Assembly (NCBI GenBank): GCA_011364975.1
Contig: RDOE01000002.1
Coordinates: 1-64,000, forward strand
Length of the DNA stretch: 64,000 bases
Direction of reading: 5' to 3'
DNA from: Promethearchaeota archaeon
GTDB taxonomy: Archaea; Asgardarchaeota; Lokiarchaeia; Sigyniarchaeales; SOKP01
The translations under genes and the position numbers were made by a program. Below are positions 43,692 to 58,840 of the stretch, piece by piece; within the stretch, counting starts at the first letter, position 1; each line of letters begins with the position of its first letter. The notes beneath the pieces are model-generated. The model was not told the origin of the DNA. It ran no database searches and saw nothing but the letters and a program-made list of their open reading frames with translations.

Positions 43692-44651
43692 TTAGTGGGG
43701 CAATTTTACGCTTTTGGTTAATTCTCCTATTGTAGTTTCTAATTCAGAGTATACGTTATGGGGGTGAATCGACTCATAACTTTCAATTTTAAAAATTATT
43801 TTAAAATTGTCTTCTAAATTGGGAAAATTGCGTAAAATGAAATTTTTTGCCATTTCTCTTATAACATCCTCAGCAAATAGAGGCTTTAAATGAGCAGTTC
43901 TCACTAATTTTGCCTCTTCAGGTCGCTTTAAGACTGATTGCATTTTCCCACTCATTGATTCTTCGATTACATCAATTATATCTAAAACATCAATTTTATG
44001 GTGGTTTAAATCTTTGATTTGCACAATAATTGTTCCCAATGATCTCTGATTATGAGAACTAAAAGGTAAAATATTTAGCAATTTTTTGACGATCTCAGGT
44101 GACAAGTCGATATCTTTTCTATTTTTAATGATTTCCTCAGCATATTCCTGGCTCATTTCCTTTGCACAAGGGCATACAGTCATTCCTAAAGCGCTCGCTC
44201 CGATATAATAATTGAAATCAACACTCTGATCTTCTTTCTTTATTGCTTTAACAGATGAACTTATATCATATGCCTTTTGAATAGTTCGTTGTTGGTCATC
44301 CTTAGCTAACACAATTATCTTTCCTTCAAGATTTACATGCACTTTTTCTGTATAAGGATGTTTTTCAAGCAATTTCCTAGCTATTCTATCTCCAACCGCC
44401 TCAACTGAAGGTGTTGATTTAAAAATTACCTCATTAATTATCTCTTCAATTGTTTCTGAAGTTCTCGACATATGAATTCCTCTTTGTTGAGCAGGAAGGG
44501 AAATTAAAGCAGAAATTTTAGGATAAAAAGAATATTTTTTATTCTGTTGAACGATATCAACCTTTTTTTCAACACCTACAATACCCACTTTATCAATTGA
44601 TATATCAATAATGGACCCTGAATCTTGTAAATCTTTTTTAAATTGATGAAT
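43692..44651 (-). CDS. mptA: GTP cyclohydrolase IV-like MptA (FolE2 family)
   Basis: The fold and metal motifs of the FolE2/MptA family are seen: QQRGIHMSRTSETIEE, SALGMTVCPCAKEM (cysteine ligand) and SSHNQRSLGTI. It converts GTP to 7,8-dihydroneopterin 2',3'-cyclic phosphate, the first step to tetrahydromethanopterin. The track starts at an internal GTG (44588). The frame continues upstream with DLQDSGS...IDKVGIVGV, which matches the family N terminus (DVQ...VGV), up to an ATT at 44651 preceded by a stop and by GGTGG. AUU initiation, or a one-base deletion after ATG 44655, is likely. Confidence 0.92.
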   Translation of the reverse strand: MHQFKKDLQDSGSIIDISIDKVGIVGVEKKVDIVQQNKKYSFYPKISALISLPAQQRGIHMSRTSETIEEIINEVIFKSTPSVEAVGDRIARKLLEKHPYTEKVHVNLEGKIIVLAKDDQQRTIQKAYDISSSVKAIKKEDQSVDFNYYIGASALGMTVCPCAKEMSQEYAEEIIKNRKDIDLSPEIVKKLLNILPFSSHNQRSLGTIIVQIKDLNHHKIDVLDIIDVIEESMSGKMQSVLKRPEEAKLVRTAHLKPLFAEDVIREMAKNFILRNFPNLEDNFKIIFKIESYESIHPHNVYSELETTIGELTKSVKLPH

Positions 44652-44757
44652 TCATAACCACCGATTTTTTCTCTATTTATAAAGATATCTCAATTTTTAT
44701 AATATATATTCGATTATATTATTTTTTGAAATAATAGAAAAAGAATTGTAGTAACTC

Positions 44758-53096: not shown

Positions 53097-54692
53097 TTAT
53101 TTATTTTTTTTAAATAATAACTCATCTTGAATATATGGTCTTCCGGTATATAAACAAAGCTCTGCTTTACTTAATTCTCTCCCTAAGTAATTTAAATGAT
53201 AAATATCATCGGTTATGCGTAATTCCATAACCTTTTTACTTAAAGTTTCTGCATTCTTTCCTATTATAAGATTGAGTAGCTCATCGTTATTAGAATAAAA
53301 TAATATATAAATTTGTTTTGAATAGTGATCCACAAAAAACCTAAAATAACCTTTTTTATCAGAAATGTAATCTGGGTTTTCAGGATCGACGAAAATGGCT
53401 TTTGTCTCATCAATTTGAGGGAAATCCTGACTAACTTTTCCCTTTGCTTTAAATATTGAAATGCCATGATTAATAGGAGGTGTTTTTTTACATTTTGCTA
53501 AATAATTAAGTTTAATAGATTCTTTTAATTCACGAACTCCGCCCATAAGTTTTATACTATGTTCTACGGTAAATAAAACGCCCATCTCTAATTCTATTGC
53601 TATACAAGCTAATAATCCATTAATACCGATGGAATCAATGTCCATTAATTCAACAACGTTTGAAATTCCAAAAAATAATGGTAATTCAATGCTTTTATCT
53701 CTTATTTGAGAGACTTTCTTTTTATATAAAAAATAAGCTTCCAAAGAATTTGTAAACCCAGGACTTATTGGAGTCTCAAGCAGAGGATCAGCTATCAGTT
53801 TTTGAAATCCCAGATTTTGCAATTCCTCTGTAAAGTAAAGTAAATTTTCAACTCTTAATGCAGGTTCTTTTGGAAAATACGCTGCTTTAATATTCGTGGG
53901 AAGAATTACAATCGGTATATCTTTTGGAATATTTAGTAGCTGTTTGTAATTTCCTTTATCAAAACTTAGAATCATATCAATCCCTTCATCTATTGCGGAC
54001 CTTATTTCTTCTTTTTCCATTGAATCTATACTTATTAAAGTATTAAATTTAGATTGAATGAGATTAATAACTTCACGAACCCTTTCAGGATTAGGTTTAT
54101 TAGCTATACATCCTATATCAATAATATCTGCTCCTGAGTCTAAATAATGCTTCACTTTTCTAAGTATTGACTCATTAGGCTTCTCTGGACAATTTACTAT
54201 CTCAGCGATTATGGGAGGGGGTAAATCGCGACCAATTATTAAATCGGATTTTTGTCTATTAATATAAAAAGTATGAGTCCCAATATTTTCTTTAGCTAAT
54301 TTAATTTTTTCAGATAGGATATCATTATATTCTCGAATTCCAGATAATTGGATTAACTTATTAGCTGCAATATTGGTAGATAATTGAATTGAGTCTAAAT
54401 TATTTAATATAAAAGGCAAATCAGACGCAAATTCTGGGCCTTTTTTAATTTCAATTGAAAATTCTTTTTCTAGATTAAAAGTATCCCATTGAACAAATCC
54501 AGGCAATAATATAATATCATAATTAGATTTGGAGATTTTTTTCAAAATCTCTTTAGTTAAATCTTCCGATAGAAAGGCTGAAATTGTTATAGGTGCTTTG
54601 TATACTTCGATTTCATTCTTATGTATATCTTTTATAAGGTTATTAATTATGGGATAACTATTAAGACCGGTTATAATTAATATTCTTTTAAT
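53097..54692 (-). CDS. DUF6513 dihydropteroate-synthase-related protein, probable AUU start
   Basis: The core (about 120-380 with the extended start) is a pterin-binding TIM barrel: IIAEIVNCPEKPNES, GADIIDIGCIANKP and LISIDSMEKEE resemble dihydropteroate synthase. The C-terminal part has an extra domain. Such proteins accompany tetrahydromethanopterin genes. The track starts at TTG 54545, but 49 codons upstream continue the family N terminus (KRILIITGLNSYP... into LLPGF). The frame opens at ATT 54692, overlapping the DUF1464-like stop as ATTAA, with a stop codon just before it. Confidence 0.86.
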   Translation of the reverse strand: MKRILIITGLNSYPIINNLIKDIHKNEIEVYKAPITISAFLSEDLTKEILKKISKSNYDIILLPGFVQWDTFNLEKEFSIEIKKGPEFASDLPFILNNLDSIQLSTNIAANKLIQLSGIREYNDILSEKIKLAKENIGTHTFYINRQKSDLIIGRDLPPPIIAEIVNCPEKPNESILRKVKHYLDSGADIIDIGCIANKPNPERVREVINLIQSKFNTLISIDSMEKEEIRSAIDEGIDMILSFDKGNYKQLLNIPKDIPIVILPTNIKAAYFPKEPALRVENLLYFTEELQNLGFQKLIADPLLETPISPGFTNSLEAYFLYKKKVSQIRDKSIELPLFFGISNVVELMDIDSIGINGLLACIAIELEMGVLFTVEHSIKLMGGVRELKESIKLNYLAKCKKTPPINHGISIFKAKGKVSQDFPQIDETKAIFVDPENPDYISDKKGYFRFFVDHYSKQIYILFYSNNDELLNLIIGKNAETLSKKVMELRITDDIYHLNYLGRELSKAELCLYTGRPYIQDELLFKKNK

Positions 54693-55779
54693 CTAAATCA
54701 CTTAATAATCTCTCTTTATTGAATGGAATATAAATATCGTCTAATATTGAGCCCTTAGCTTCTCTAACTCGTAGATTATTTACAATGGATTCAAATTTGC
54801 CTCCCAGCAAACCGTTAGCTATAAAGGCTGCTCCTTGGGCAGCATGTTTTGATAAATGGCTATATGATTTCATTAGTCTTACTGGAGCAATTTCACTTAA
54901 ATTATTAATCATTTTCTGATCTAAATATTTTAGTTCTGCTCCTCTCCCTGCTATTAAAATTTCACATATCTTTTTTCGGTTAGTAAATGAAGCAGAGATA
55001 CCATAAACTGCTTTTTTGACATCTGATAAATACGCATCAAGAGCCATCTTAGTTTGGTCATCCTTTTGTGCTAGTAATATTATCTCATCTAAGCTCAAAT
55101 CTTGATAACCTGCAATAAAAGACACTCCGCCTTTATAAATATTCTTCTTTTTTATGTCTTTAATTAAATAAGCTAACTCTCCATCAAGACTACCGCATGC
55201 TCGAAATCCCATTATATTTGATCCTCCAATACCGTCGATGATTTGACCATTTTCAATTGCAAGTACAGCAGTAAATCCGTAACCTATTTCTACCATGATA
55301 AAATTTACGTCTTCAGGGCGGTTATTTTTTCGTTCCATCTGATCCCTTATACCTGTAACAGCAGTACATAATTTATCTGCCGTCCCCATGTCAATTTTGT
55401 TAATTTTTCGATAATTTGGAACAGTTGGTAAATGTTTAACACCTGGAACAATAACTCCTGGAATATTTTCAGCTTTAATAAGCCTAAGAACATTACCAAG
55501 ACCAATTAATTTATCCTTTTCTTTTTTCTCGAATTTGAGTACTGTAAAAAATATATCTTTCTCTGTTAAATCTTTTACACTCTTTAATGGTAACCCAAAA
55601 CCGCTTGGCGCTACCATTAAATCAATATTTTCCATTGATTTGATAACTGCAATAGCTTTTTTTGGATCTTCAATTAACTCTTTTGATGGTAATGAGGTGT
55701 CTAATATTATTTCATCCTCATCTAAGCCACAAAAATCCCACGAAAGTGACCCCGGATCAATTCCAAGTACCCTATACAC
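54688..55779 (-). CDS. DUF1464-type ASKHA-fold (predicted kinase-like) protein
   Basis: The N-terminal VLGIDPGSLSWDF is the first phosphate-binding loop of the acetate/sugar-kinase/actin fold. VEIGYGFTAVLAIENGQIIDGIGG is the second, and EILIAGRGAELKYLD the adenosine-binding part. The 363-residue protein fits DUF1464, sometimes annotated as predicted butyrate kinase without proof. Its translational overlap with the DUF6513 gene suggests a shared role in pterin or C1 metabolism. Confidence 0.78.
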   Translation of the reverse strand: MYRVLGIDPGSLSWDFCGLDEDEIILDTSLPSKELIEDPKKAIAVIKSMENIDLMVAPSGFGLPLKSVKDLTEKDIFFTVLKFEKKEKDKLIGLGNVLRLIKAENIPGVIVPGVKHLPTVPNYRKINKIDMGTADKLCTAVTGIRDQMERKNNRPEDVNFIMVEIGYGFTAVLAIENGQIIDGIGGSNIMGFRACGSLDGELAYLIKDIKKKNIYKGGVSFIAGYQDLSLDEIILLAQKDDQTKMALDAYLSDVKKAVYGISASFTNRKKICEILIAGRGAELKYLDQKMINNLSEIAPVRLMKSYSHLSKHAAQGAAFIANGLLGGKFESIVNNLRVREAKGSILDDIYIPFNKERLLSDLD

Positions 55780-55960: not shown

Positions 55961-56701
55961 ATGAATATGGATTATAAATCTATAGGACTAGAAGAGAATT
56001 CATTGTATGAAGTCTTAGCGACAACTTTTTCAATTGAAAGTGAAAATCAATTTGTTCCTAATACGGCATCTATGGGAATTAGAATATTGAATAATGGTTT
56101 AATTAGTATGAGCCCTTATCCTTCAACAAAAACTTTTCAAAATTTGAATCAAATACCCCTTGTAACGCTTAATTTTGTAGATAATATCTTTTTATACGCT
56201 TTAACTTCATTAAAAGGTTCAAATATGCTTAATAATATTAAAGGAGAAAAGGAAAATTTTTATGATTATTATCAATTAAAATCATTGACTCATTTTAAGG
56301 ATCAACTTAAAGCTAAAAAACTCCAAGAAAGTTTCTCAATTCCTTTTATAAAAGATTCTTGGGCAATAATTATTAGTGAAGTAAAAATGAGAAATAATAG
56401 ACATAAAGAAGATGAGTTTGGAATGCTGAAATTAACGGAATTTTTACTAAGCCCAATTTTAATTAAAAAATTTAGAGAATCATACAAACTTTTTAATAGA
56501 GCAGAAAATATTACTTTAGAAACTATAATTTTAGCAACAAGATTAAAGGTTGCCTTTGAAGTAAAAGATAAAAGCTCTTTAGATCAAATCAACTATAAAA
56601 TCGCAGAAAATGTAAAAACAATAAACAGATTTAGTAAAAATGAAAGGGTGTTGAGATCCTTAGAATATATTCAGCAATATATTGAGAAATTTAAAGATTA
56701 A
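55961..56701 (+). CDS. DUF447 family flavin-binding-like protein
   Basis: The N-terminal half (GLEENSLYEVLATTFSIESE, FVPNTASMGIRILNNGLISM, SPYPSTKTFQNL) is the split-barrel-like DUF447 domain that recurs in tetrahydromethanopterin gene clusters of archaea and methylotrophs. The second half is helical. The cofactor may be FMN. The gene is convergent with mptD and their stop codons overlap by 4 bp. The exact enzymatic role in H4MPT synthesis is unknown. Confidence 0.82.
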   Translation: MNMDYKSIGLEENSLYEVLATTFSIESENQFVPNTASMGIRILNNGLISMSPYPSTKTFQNLNQIPLVTLNFVDNIFLYALTSLKGSNMLNNIKGEKENFYDYYQLKSLTHFKDQLKAKKLQESFSIPFIKDSWAIIISEVKMRNNRHKEDEFGMLKLTEFLLSPILIKKFRESYKLFNRAENITLETIILATRLKVAFEVKDKSSLDQINYKIAENVKTINRFSKNERVLRSLEYIQQYIEKFKD

Positions 56702-57093
56702 TCCTTTACTTTAATGGTTTCAATATACATTAAGGGATACTTTAGGGTATCAATCCACTTAATAAAGGCAGTTACTTCAACAGATTCAAATTCAATAATT
56801 ACTTTAGCATTTATGATTTTTCCAGTTACTTCATCATAGTCAAACTCGGTAGATTTATCACCAGAGATTTTAGTTTTATCAATATCGATTTTCACAAATT
56901 TGACATATGGTTGGCATGATATTGCAGCTTCTATTCCTTTTTCAATAGATTCAATAACTGCTGAATCTGAACGTATTGGTATACCACATAAAATGTGATA
57001 AAGTGCTCCTAATTTTATTCCAACTTCAAAGCAAGCTCTTTCTCTAATACTCAGGTTAGGATCAAAGAAAGACCGTTCATCAGTAAGAGGCAT
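56698..57093 (-). CDS. mptD: Archaeal dihydroneopterin aldolase MptD
   Basis: A 131-residue protein with the MptD pattern: RACFEVGIKLGALYHILCGIP near the start and AISCQPYVKFVKIDIDKTKI in the middle. It cleaves 7,8-dihydroneopterin to 6-hydroxymethyl-7,8-dihydropterin and glycolaldehyde on the tetrahydromethanopterin route. The glutamate in FEVGIKLG is a likely catalytic residue. Its ATG overlaps the mptG stop by one base (TAATG), so the two are translationally coupled. Confidence 0.88.
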   Translation of the reverse strand: MPLTDERSFFDPNLSIRERACFEVGIKLGALYHILCGIPIRSDSAVIESIEKGIEAAISCQPYVKFVKIDIDKTKISGDKSTEFDYDEVTGKIINAKVIIEFESVEVTAFIKWIDTLKYPLMYIETIKVKD

Positions 57094-58106
57094 TAAATAT
57101 CATCCAAATACTCAATTTTTGCTCCATCATTATTTGGTTTACAGATGTAAATATGACCACCTATAGGTTTCAGACGCATTTGCACTTCTTTTAATAAGGC
57201 ATTTGCTTCTTCATCTGATTCGACAATTCCAACTATACTTGGACCAAATGAAGACATAGCATATGCTTTTAATCCAAATTCCTCAAAAAATTTAAGAATC
57301 CCCTTAACAATGTCGTGTTGTAGAGAAATCTCGATTTTCTTGAATCCAATTTTTTGAATACTTTTTAACCCTTCTCCGAAACATTTTAAATCGTTTTTAA
57401 TAATTCCTGGAATAACTTTCATTAAAATTTGATGAGAAACTTCTGTGACTTCTGATTTAGGTATTGGGGCATTAGATTGAAAAATACTCACTTCTTCATC
57501 CCCATAAGCACCTTTTTTTACATTTGGTATAACTAAAACAAATCTCCAATTTTCAGGGATGGGATATCTTAAAATTGTAATTGCAGGATCTACTTCGGTT
57601 GATGCTGAAGATGGCAAAAAGGTTTCTTTTTCTTTTCCTATTCCAAAATCATGCCCTGCATCTAATATGAAACCCCCGTTTTCAAAACCTCTCCAGCCTA
57701 TTCCAGAAGTTCCTCCTCTTCCAACGAGTTTGGTTAATTCATTCGTATTTAAATTATTTATATTCTTTAGTTTGGTTATAGCTCGAGCAATAGCTAAGGA
57801 TAATTGGGTTTTTGAGCCTAACCCTACGTGGCTGGGGTAATATCTTATAAGATTAAAATGAAAATTTTTATTACTTATATTAAACGCTTTAAATACCCTT
57901 GATGCAATTTCGTTTATTACCTCGATTGATTCTCGATAATATTTATTTGCTTTAATTTTGAATTCTTCAGCATTGTTTGAAGCTTCGAAAACAACATTTG
58001 GACGGTCTAACATAAGACCTATCCCTCCATCTACCCTTCCCGTGAAACCATTCTCATCAATTAAGGAAAGATGAATACGACAGGGCGTAATTATTCTAAT
58101 TTTCAT
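57093..58106 (-). CDS. mptG: Beta-ribofuranosylaminobenzene 5'-phosphate synthase MptG
   Basis: A GHMP-kinase-fold enzyme, with CRIHLSLIDENGFTGRVDGGIG at the N terminus, HVGLGSKTQLSLAIARAI as the phosphate loop region, and GRGGTSGIGWRGFENGGFILDAG. It condenses p-hydroxybenzoate or p-aminobenzoate with PRPP, releasing CO2, to form the arylamine part of tetrahydromethanopterin. Length (337) is typical. It heads the mptG-mptD pair on the minus strand. Confidence 0.93.
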   Translation of the reverse strand: MKIRIITPCRIHLSLIDENGFTGRVDGGIGLMLDRPNVVFEASNNAEEFKIKANKYYRESIEVINEIASRVFKAFNISNKNFHFNLIRYYPSHVGLGSKTQLSLAIARAITKLKNINNLNTNELTKLVGRGGTSGIGWRGFENGGFILDAGHDFGIGKEKETFLPSSASTEVDPAITILRYPIPENWRFVLVIPNVKKGAYGDEEVSIFQSNAPIPKSEVTEVSHQILMKVIPGIIKNDLKCFGEGLKSIQKIGFKKIEISLQHDIVKGILKFFEEFGLKAYAMSSFGPSIVGIVESDEEANALLKEVQMRLKPIGGHIYICKPNNDGAKIEYLDDI

Positions 58107-58447: not shown

Positions 58448-58840
58448 ATTATCACTATTTTCGTAGTTGAGGATGACCATTCGTTAAGGATGCTTTACGA
58501 GAAAGCCCTAGAACTAAATGGATATACTGTTATAGGCGCCGCAAAGGATGGAGACGAAGCAGTAAAAATGTTTGTAGGTTTCACTTCTAAACCAAAGGTT
58601 ATTATAATGGATCATAGAATGCCTATAAAAAATGGAATTGAAGCAACGAAAGAAATTTTAGCAATATCTGATAATCCAAAACCCAAAATTATATTTGCGA
58701 GCGCTGATCTTTCAATTAAAGAAGAGGCTTTAGCGATTGGTGTTTCATGTTTTAAGGATAAACCATTTACACTAGAAAGATTATTTAGTAATATTGAAAA
58801 GGTAATAGCCAAGGATCAAATACTAAAAATTCAAAGTTGA
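58448..58840 (+). CDS. Single-domain response regulator (CheY-like), probable AUU start
   Basis: A receiver domain with the acidic pair in FVVEDDHSLRMLYEKAL, phosphoacceptor Asp in IIMDHRMPIKNG, the Thr/Ser region IIFASADLS and the lysine in CFKDKPF. There is no output domain, so it is a CheY-like or phosphorelay component. The track's ATG 58490 would remove strand 1 and the acidic pair. Upstream in frame after a stop there is only TTA AAG ATT ATC; ATT 58448, ten bases after GGGGGT, gives the normal start (M)ITIFVVEDD. Confidence 0.87.
   Translation: MITIFVVEDDHSLRMLYEKALELNGYTVIGAAKDGDEAVKMFVGFTSKPKVIIMDHRMPIKNGIEATKEILAISDNPKPKIIFASADLSIKEEALAIGVSCFKDKPFTLERLFSNIEKVIAKDQILKIQS

Follow-up and report, generated by a model that had tools for sequence, protein, structure and literature searches.

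A conserved AUU codon as the probable start of a dihydropteroate-synthase-like gene in a Lokiarchaeal family

Results

A dihydropteroate-synthase-like gene lacking a usable canonical start

The window analysed here comprises 64,000 nucleotides from a Promethearchaeota archaeon (contig RDOE01000002.1, positions 1–64,000). Its minus strand carries a gene for a dihydropteroate-synthase-like (DHPS-like) protein at 53097–54692, open for 531 codons from an ATT triplet (54690–54692), the inferred start codon according to reading of the sequence and family comparison. The protein matches TIGR00284 at 289.9 bits (curated cut-off 256.65), with residues 3–524 aligned to model positions 2–495 of 497, a near full-length match. 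TIGR00284, dihydropteroate-synthase-like, is the best name for it; Pfam matches were to Pterin_bind and PterinBD-DUF4346 (E 0.001), and no model named DUF6513, the identity given to the gene in a sequence-only reading, was matched. The gene belongs to a pterin-cofactor group that includes a dihydroneopterin aldolase family protein (56698–57093) and beta-RFAP synthase (57093–58106). No phage match was found.

The upstream gene, DUF1464 (PF07318), occupies 54688–55779 of the minus strand, and its TAA stop (54690–54688) overlaps the ATT, giving an overlap of 5 nt. Read along the minus strand, the junction runs ...AGTGATTTAG, followed by ATT AAA AGA ATA TTA..., or, written with the division immediately before the start, ...TTAAGTGATTTAG and ATTAAAAGAATATTAATTATAACCGG...; it also contains a TTTAAAT-like word. 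An in-frame TAG (54693–54695) lies directly 5′ of the ATT and closes off an upstream GTG (54701–54699), while the first canonical codon downstream is the TTG of codon 50 (54543–54545), a start at which would lose the conserved ILIITG N terminus. Direct reading thus bore out the earlier description of 49 codons ahead of the first TTG, an in-frame stop before the ATT and no usable ATG, GTG or TTG.

A Shine-Dalgarno (SD) piece, GTGAT, is located at 54697–54701 (minus strand) and is followed by the 4-nt spacer TTAG and then ATT. The 3′ end of this organism's own 16S rRNA was sought in the assembly and is missing, and tails were taken from relatives. Those of the family end in GGATCACCTCCT, of which AUCAC pairs with GTGAT, placing a complement of the 16S tail (as found in relatives) 4 nt before the ATT.

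Conservation of ATT in the family

DHPS-like homologues were found in 53 of 58 relatives and in 56 of the family's 65 genomes; named records were retrieved by an alignment-based search of genome contigs. The start region reads GTG-AT(H)-TA(A/G)-ATT in 44 of the 56 family loci (one with ATG as the second codon), and ATT comes next in all 44 loci that carry a stop at that place (25 TAA, 19 TAG). These 44 loci span five genera (g1, g3, g4, g5 and g8) and have no canonical start upstream, the next one downstream lying at codons 15–152. The other 12 loci have a sense codon instead of the stop, followed by ATT (5), ATA (4), GAT (2) or ACC (1). The ACC locus has ATT one codon further on; the two GAT loci have gained a TTG directly before, and G019 and G020, with TTG in the preceding codon, are the only losses of ATT/ATA in genus g1. 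Lineages differ in whether codon 3, counted from the GTG, is a stop or a sense codon, a freedom that fits a spacer. The ATT column aligns with the ATG of two class-level relatives (L038 and L041, MKKILIVTG), and the relatives with ATT are independent Candidatus Lokiarchaeota/Lokiarchaeia MAGs, including the chromosome-level CP070805 and CP070831. The gene thus combines the lack of a usable canonical start with a conserved near-cognate codon. On this comparison, the best explanation is that AUU is the ancestral, maintained start of the DHPS-like gene in the family. One genome (G025) contains two copies of the gene (L022, L034), both with GTG-ATN-TAA-ATT.

Among 39 sequences, codons 3–49 had a pN/pS of 0.39 vs 0.29 in the rest of the gene, 51% of their differences fell at third positions and they contained no indels. 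Judged by these substitution patterns, codons 3–49 are under purifying selection; together with the conserved N terminus, the pN/pS and the lack of indels indicate that the frame is translated from near the ATT. With ATT next in 44 of 44 loci that have the stop, these values make the arrangement more than a coincidence.

The SD word is retained across different upstream contexts

GTGAT is kept in 54–56 of 56 family loci, and most relatives have AGTGATTTAA-ATT. The upstream stop, by comparison, varies in position, lying 12 nt or 3 nt before the ATT or in other phases, and the AGTGAT-NNNN-ATT motif persists throughout. Specifically, the upstream gene ends in frame in L005, at −9 in L009–L011 and in the third phase in L024 and L094; all of these have lost the 5-nt overlap yet keep ATT. 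In a further group (L027), the gene upstream is unrelated and the motif word is kept, with ATA as start codon. Retention of AGTGAT across upstream phases and beside an unrelated neighbour argues for a translation signal rather than a mere by-product of the DUF1464 C terminus. Counting against the AUU reading, the SD is only 5 nt long, and in most genomes it overlaps the upstream coding sequence.

These loci also bear on the proposal that ATTAA mimics the common ATGA overlap and brings about coupled re-initiation. Both are stop/start overlaps of neighbouring genes, but the one described here measures 5 nt rather than four and is in another phase, and it is not conserved where AUU is. The ATTAA-driven form of coupling is not supported, the motif being kept at other stop phases and beside another neighbour; coupling to upstream translation in general may still occur, because the genes are adjacent.

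Other genes with probable AUU, AUA or CUG starts

We searched 443 kb of the organism's own genome for genes whose coding sequence extends upstream of any canonical start, and checked these candidates against their counterparts in relatives. Five automatic start columns (g36, g96, g207, g330 and g68), being either unclear or columns of Ile, were excluded from start counts. Within the window, an MptA-like GTP cyclohydrolase gene (PF02649; 43692–44651, minus strand) lacks a canonical start; its inferred start is ATT at 44651–44649, with GGTG at 44662–44659. In 13 genomes this column holds ATT in 10 (this genome and nine relatives) and ATA, ATC and ATG in one each. A response-regulator-like gene (58448–58840, plus strand) probably starts at ATT 58448, as a start at ATG 58490 would drop the acidic VVEDD motif. 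Two relatives have ATA or ATG in its start column and, with few orthologues, the case is suggestive only.

Outside the window, the ribosomal protein eS19 gene (L145, contig C169 of this genome) has ATT in 13, ATG in 16 and TTG in 1 of 30 genomes at the same codon, the ATT carriers being 12 members of its own genus and G081. The gene for ribosomal protein uL1 (L128, contig C106) shows CTG in this genome and G069, and ATG or TTG in 28 of 30. Tandem membrane-protein paralogues and an HTH-like gene (L128, 4730–7671, plus strand) have strong SDs, for example GGAGGTGATTTAAAGC-ATT, before the starts ATA, TTG, ATT, ATT and ATA. The paralogues gave no Pfam match; they share one column of ATA/ATT/TTG/ATG, and ATA is found again in about a dozen genomes. 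A further gene, preceded by AAGGTGAT, has ATA or ATT in 14 of 17 cases and ATG in 3.

An SD of at least 4 nt precedes 8 of 9 near-cognate starts vs 9 of 27 ATG starts (Fisher p 0.005), in a sample that is non-random because the near-cognate genes were picked by their absent canonical starts. In a genome-wide scan of the 443 kb and G076, ATT and ATA followed strong SDs 31 times, with about 18.5 expected, a modest excess. G076, of the same family, has similar near-cognate cases; in G042, from the same order, ATA is seen but ATT is not, and G057, of the same phylum, shows no excess. The sequence patterns are best explained by a broader tendency of these genomes to use near-cognate starts (AUU, AUA and sometimes CUG) led by an SD, of which the DHPS-like gene would be one instance. 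A stronger proposal, which we consider evenly balanced between right and wrong, is that in this Lokiarchaeal family AUU and AUA are regular SD-dependent starts, that several per cent of genes use them, among these conserved genes for ribosomal proteins and the pterin pathway, that they are kept over genus-level divergence, and that initiation tolerates the third codon position more freely than in any described archaeon.

Two further frames were observed. In G042, which belongs to another family of the order, a PIN-domain-like frame opens at ATA after AGGTGA, 76 codons before a canonical start (L255, 13578, plus strand), and in an HTH-type protein gene (L135, 16304–17249, plus strand) the coding signal spans 131 codons before any canonical start is reached.

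Initiator tRNA and decoding machinery

The initiator tRNA of relatives has the anticodon CAT only, and aIF1 is present. A special initiator tRNA reading AUU was considered and rejected, as the anticodon-loop matches to NAT other than CAT fall outside tRNA genes. The best PylS match scored 31.7 bits against a cut-off of 178, no pyrrolysine system was found, and the tRNA-Pyl calls proved to be two intron-containing Lys tRNAs, miscalled without an intron search.

Many tRNA genes of this genome contain introns (L061, L064, L066–L068, L070, L072 and L073). In addition, HdrA-like and VhuD-like genes have frames that open after an in-frame TGA (L141, 7176 and 9298, plus strand; L271, 3800, minus strand) and look like selenocysteine-encoding genes, which are known for Lokiarchaeota.

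Discussion

Taken together, the comparative data make it very probable that the DHPS-like gene is translated from AUU by SD-led near-cognate initiation with the ordinary CAU initiator tRNA. Family conservation, the conserved N terminus, a correctly spaced SD and other genes behaving alike uphold the start at AUU that had been proposed from the sequence alone, and the alignment of homologous N termini agrees with it, with ATT matching the ATG of class-level relatives and TIGR00284 aligning from residue 3. From position, conservation, SD match, N-terminal selection and parallel cases, all obtained by comparison, we infer actual initiation at AUU. In the proposed sequence of events, mRNA GUGAU would pair with AUCAC of the 16S tail and hold the 30S subunit, and this pairing would put the AUU, 4 nt downstream, in the P site. 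The ordinary methionyl initiator tRNA would then accept AUU despite the third-position mismatch, and the protein would begin with Met. The UAR triplet that precedes AUU in frame would act as spacer only, and a modest translation rate would be maintained for the gene. The CAT anticodon of the initiator, the presence of aIF1 and the absence of PylS make the usual initiator, with help from the SD, the probable reader of AUU.

The overlap with DUF1464 may have favoured AUU in particular. Where the common 5-nt overlap exists, the T of the upstream TAA doubles as the last base of the start codon. Only a start ending in T can therefore be used, and AUU is the sole one-mismatch variant of AUG with that ending. 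An AUG here would change TAA to GAA, and DUF1464 would lose its stop and gain 9 extra residues. This constraint explains the persistence of AUU only in part, because the codon is kept where the overlap is gone: the constraint is absent in L005, L009–L011 and L015–L016, and ATT is still there.

Several other readings of the junction were weighed. Translation might begin two codons upstream, at the conserved GTG, with readthrough of UAA or UAG at codon 3. That GTG is found in 56 of 56 loci and is open, and thus usable, in about 10–12 loci without the stop, and two relatives outside the family (L042, L046) have ATG at a similar spacing. We nevertheless consider readthrough very unlikely, given that both UAA (25) and UAG (19) occur, that neither PylS nor a true tRNA-Pyl was found, that the SD word GTGAT accounts for the conserved GTG, and that free switching between stop and sense at codon 3 is unlike translated sequence. 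A shorter protein starting at the internal TTG of codon 50 is what gene finders restricted to ATG/GTG/TTG would choose; it is hardly credible here, as the next canonical codon is scattered among loci (15 to 152) and the N terminus that would be lost is conserved, under purifying selection and within the TIGR00284 model. A programmed frameshift from DUF1464, yielding a fused protein, deserves equally little credence. The genes overlap and the junction has its TTTAAAT-like word, but this word leads to another frame, and the upstream gene has no fixed end point, stopping in frame in L005, at −9 in L009–L011 and in the third phase in L024 and L094, while in the L027 group another gene altogether lies there. 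Survival of the motif with the upstream stop in different phases refutes a frameshift fusion and rules out the ATTAA overlap as the cause. That a sequencing or assembly error conceals an ATG carries next to no probability. The window does come from a MAG of 200 contigs, but ATT occupies the same place in 44 loci from independent assemblies, which refutes an error for the family and makes an ATG in the reads very unlikely.

A different kind of alternative accepts the AUU start and assigns it a regulatory purpose, as in infC, such that a low level of aIF1 or another fidelity factor would raise pterin-gene output. Two genes of the same pathway, DHPS-like and MptA, have long kept AUU, and infC sets a precedent (PMC5472188); on the other side, AUU, AUA and CUG also start genes for ribosomal proteins and membrane paralogues. 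We regard regulation as rather unlikely; it would be compatible with SD-led initiation at AUU and would add one step to it.

Conserved near-cognate starts have precedents in bacteria, where infC, encoding IF3, starts at AUU in E. coli and sigR of Streptomyces at GTC (PMC5472188). As in those cases, a near-cognate start is conserved in a real gene and overlooked by gene finders. The present case differs in involving an archaeal ribosome, aIF1 in place of IF3 and several unrelated genes. Among Asgard archaea, the AtubA tubulin gene of Kariarchaeaceae has been inferred by the authors of its description to start at the rare codon ATT, plausibly spaced from a ribosome binding site (PMC13394414). 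That gene resembles the DHPS-like gene in its inferred ATT start, but it is a single inferred case from another Asgard lineage, without a family-wide test or a link to other genes. The mRNA leader of P. abyssi aEF1A reads GGAGGUGAUUUAA-AUG (PMC6237735) and thus has GUGAUUUAA at the same spacing to the start as most relatives studied here, differing in its AUG start and longer SD. A 2020 review named no archaeal start codons other than AUG, GUG and UUG (PMC7531240), and according to a 2021 review, elongation and termination are the only stages for which non-canonical events have been demonstrated in Archaea (PMC8211752). A search of the open-access literature revealed no archaeal AUU start conserved across a family.

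Standard gene finders miss true gene beginnings where rare starts such as AUU, AUA and CUG are used. A family-wide AUU start, with its AUU, AUA and CUG parallels, would therefore mean that many Asgard protein N termini are wrongly annotated, and correct N termini matter when the protein structures and evolution of eukaryotes' closest relatives are studied. Lokiarchaeal AUU starts would also offer a direct test of start-codon strictness in the archaeal aIF1 system.
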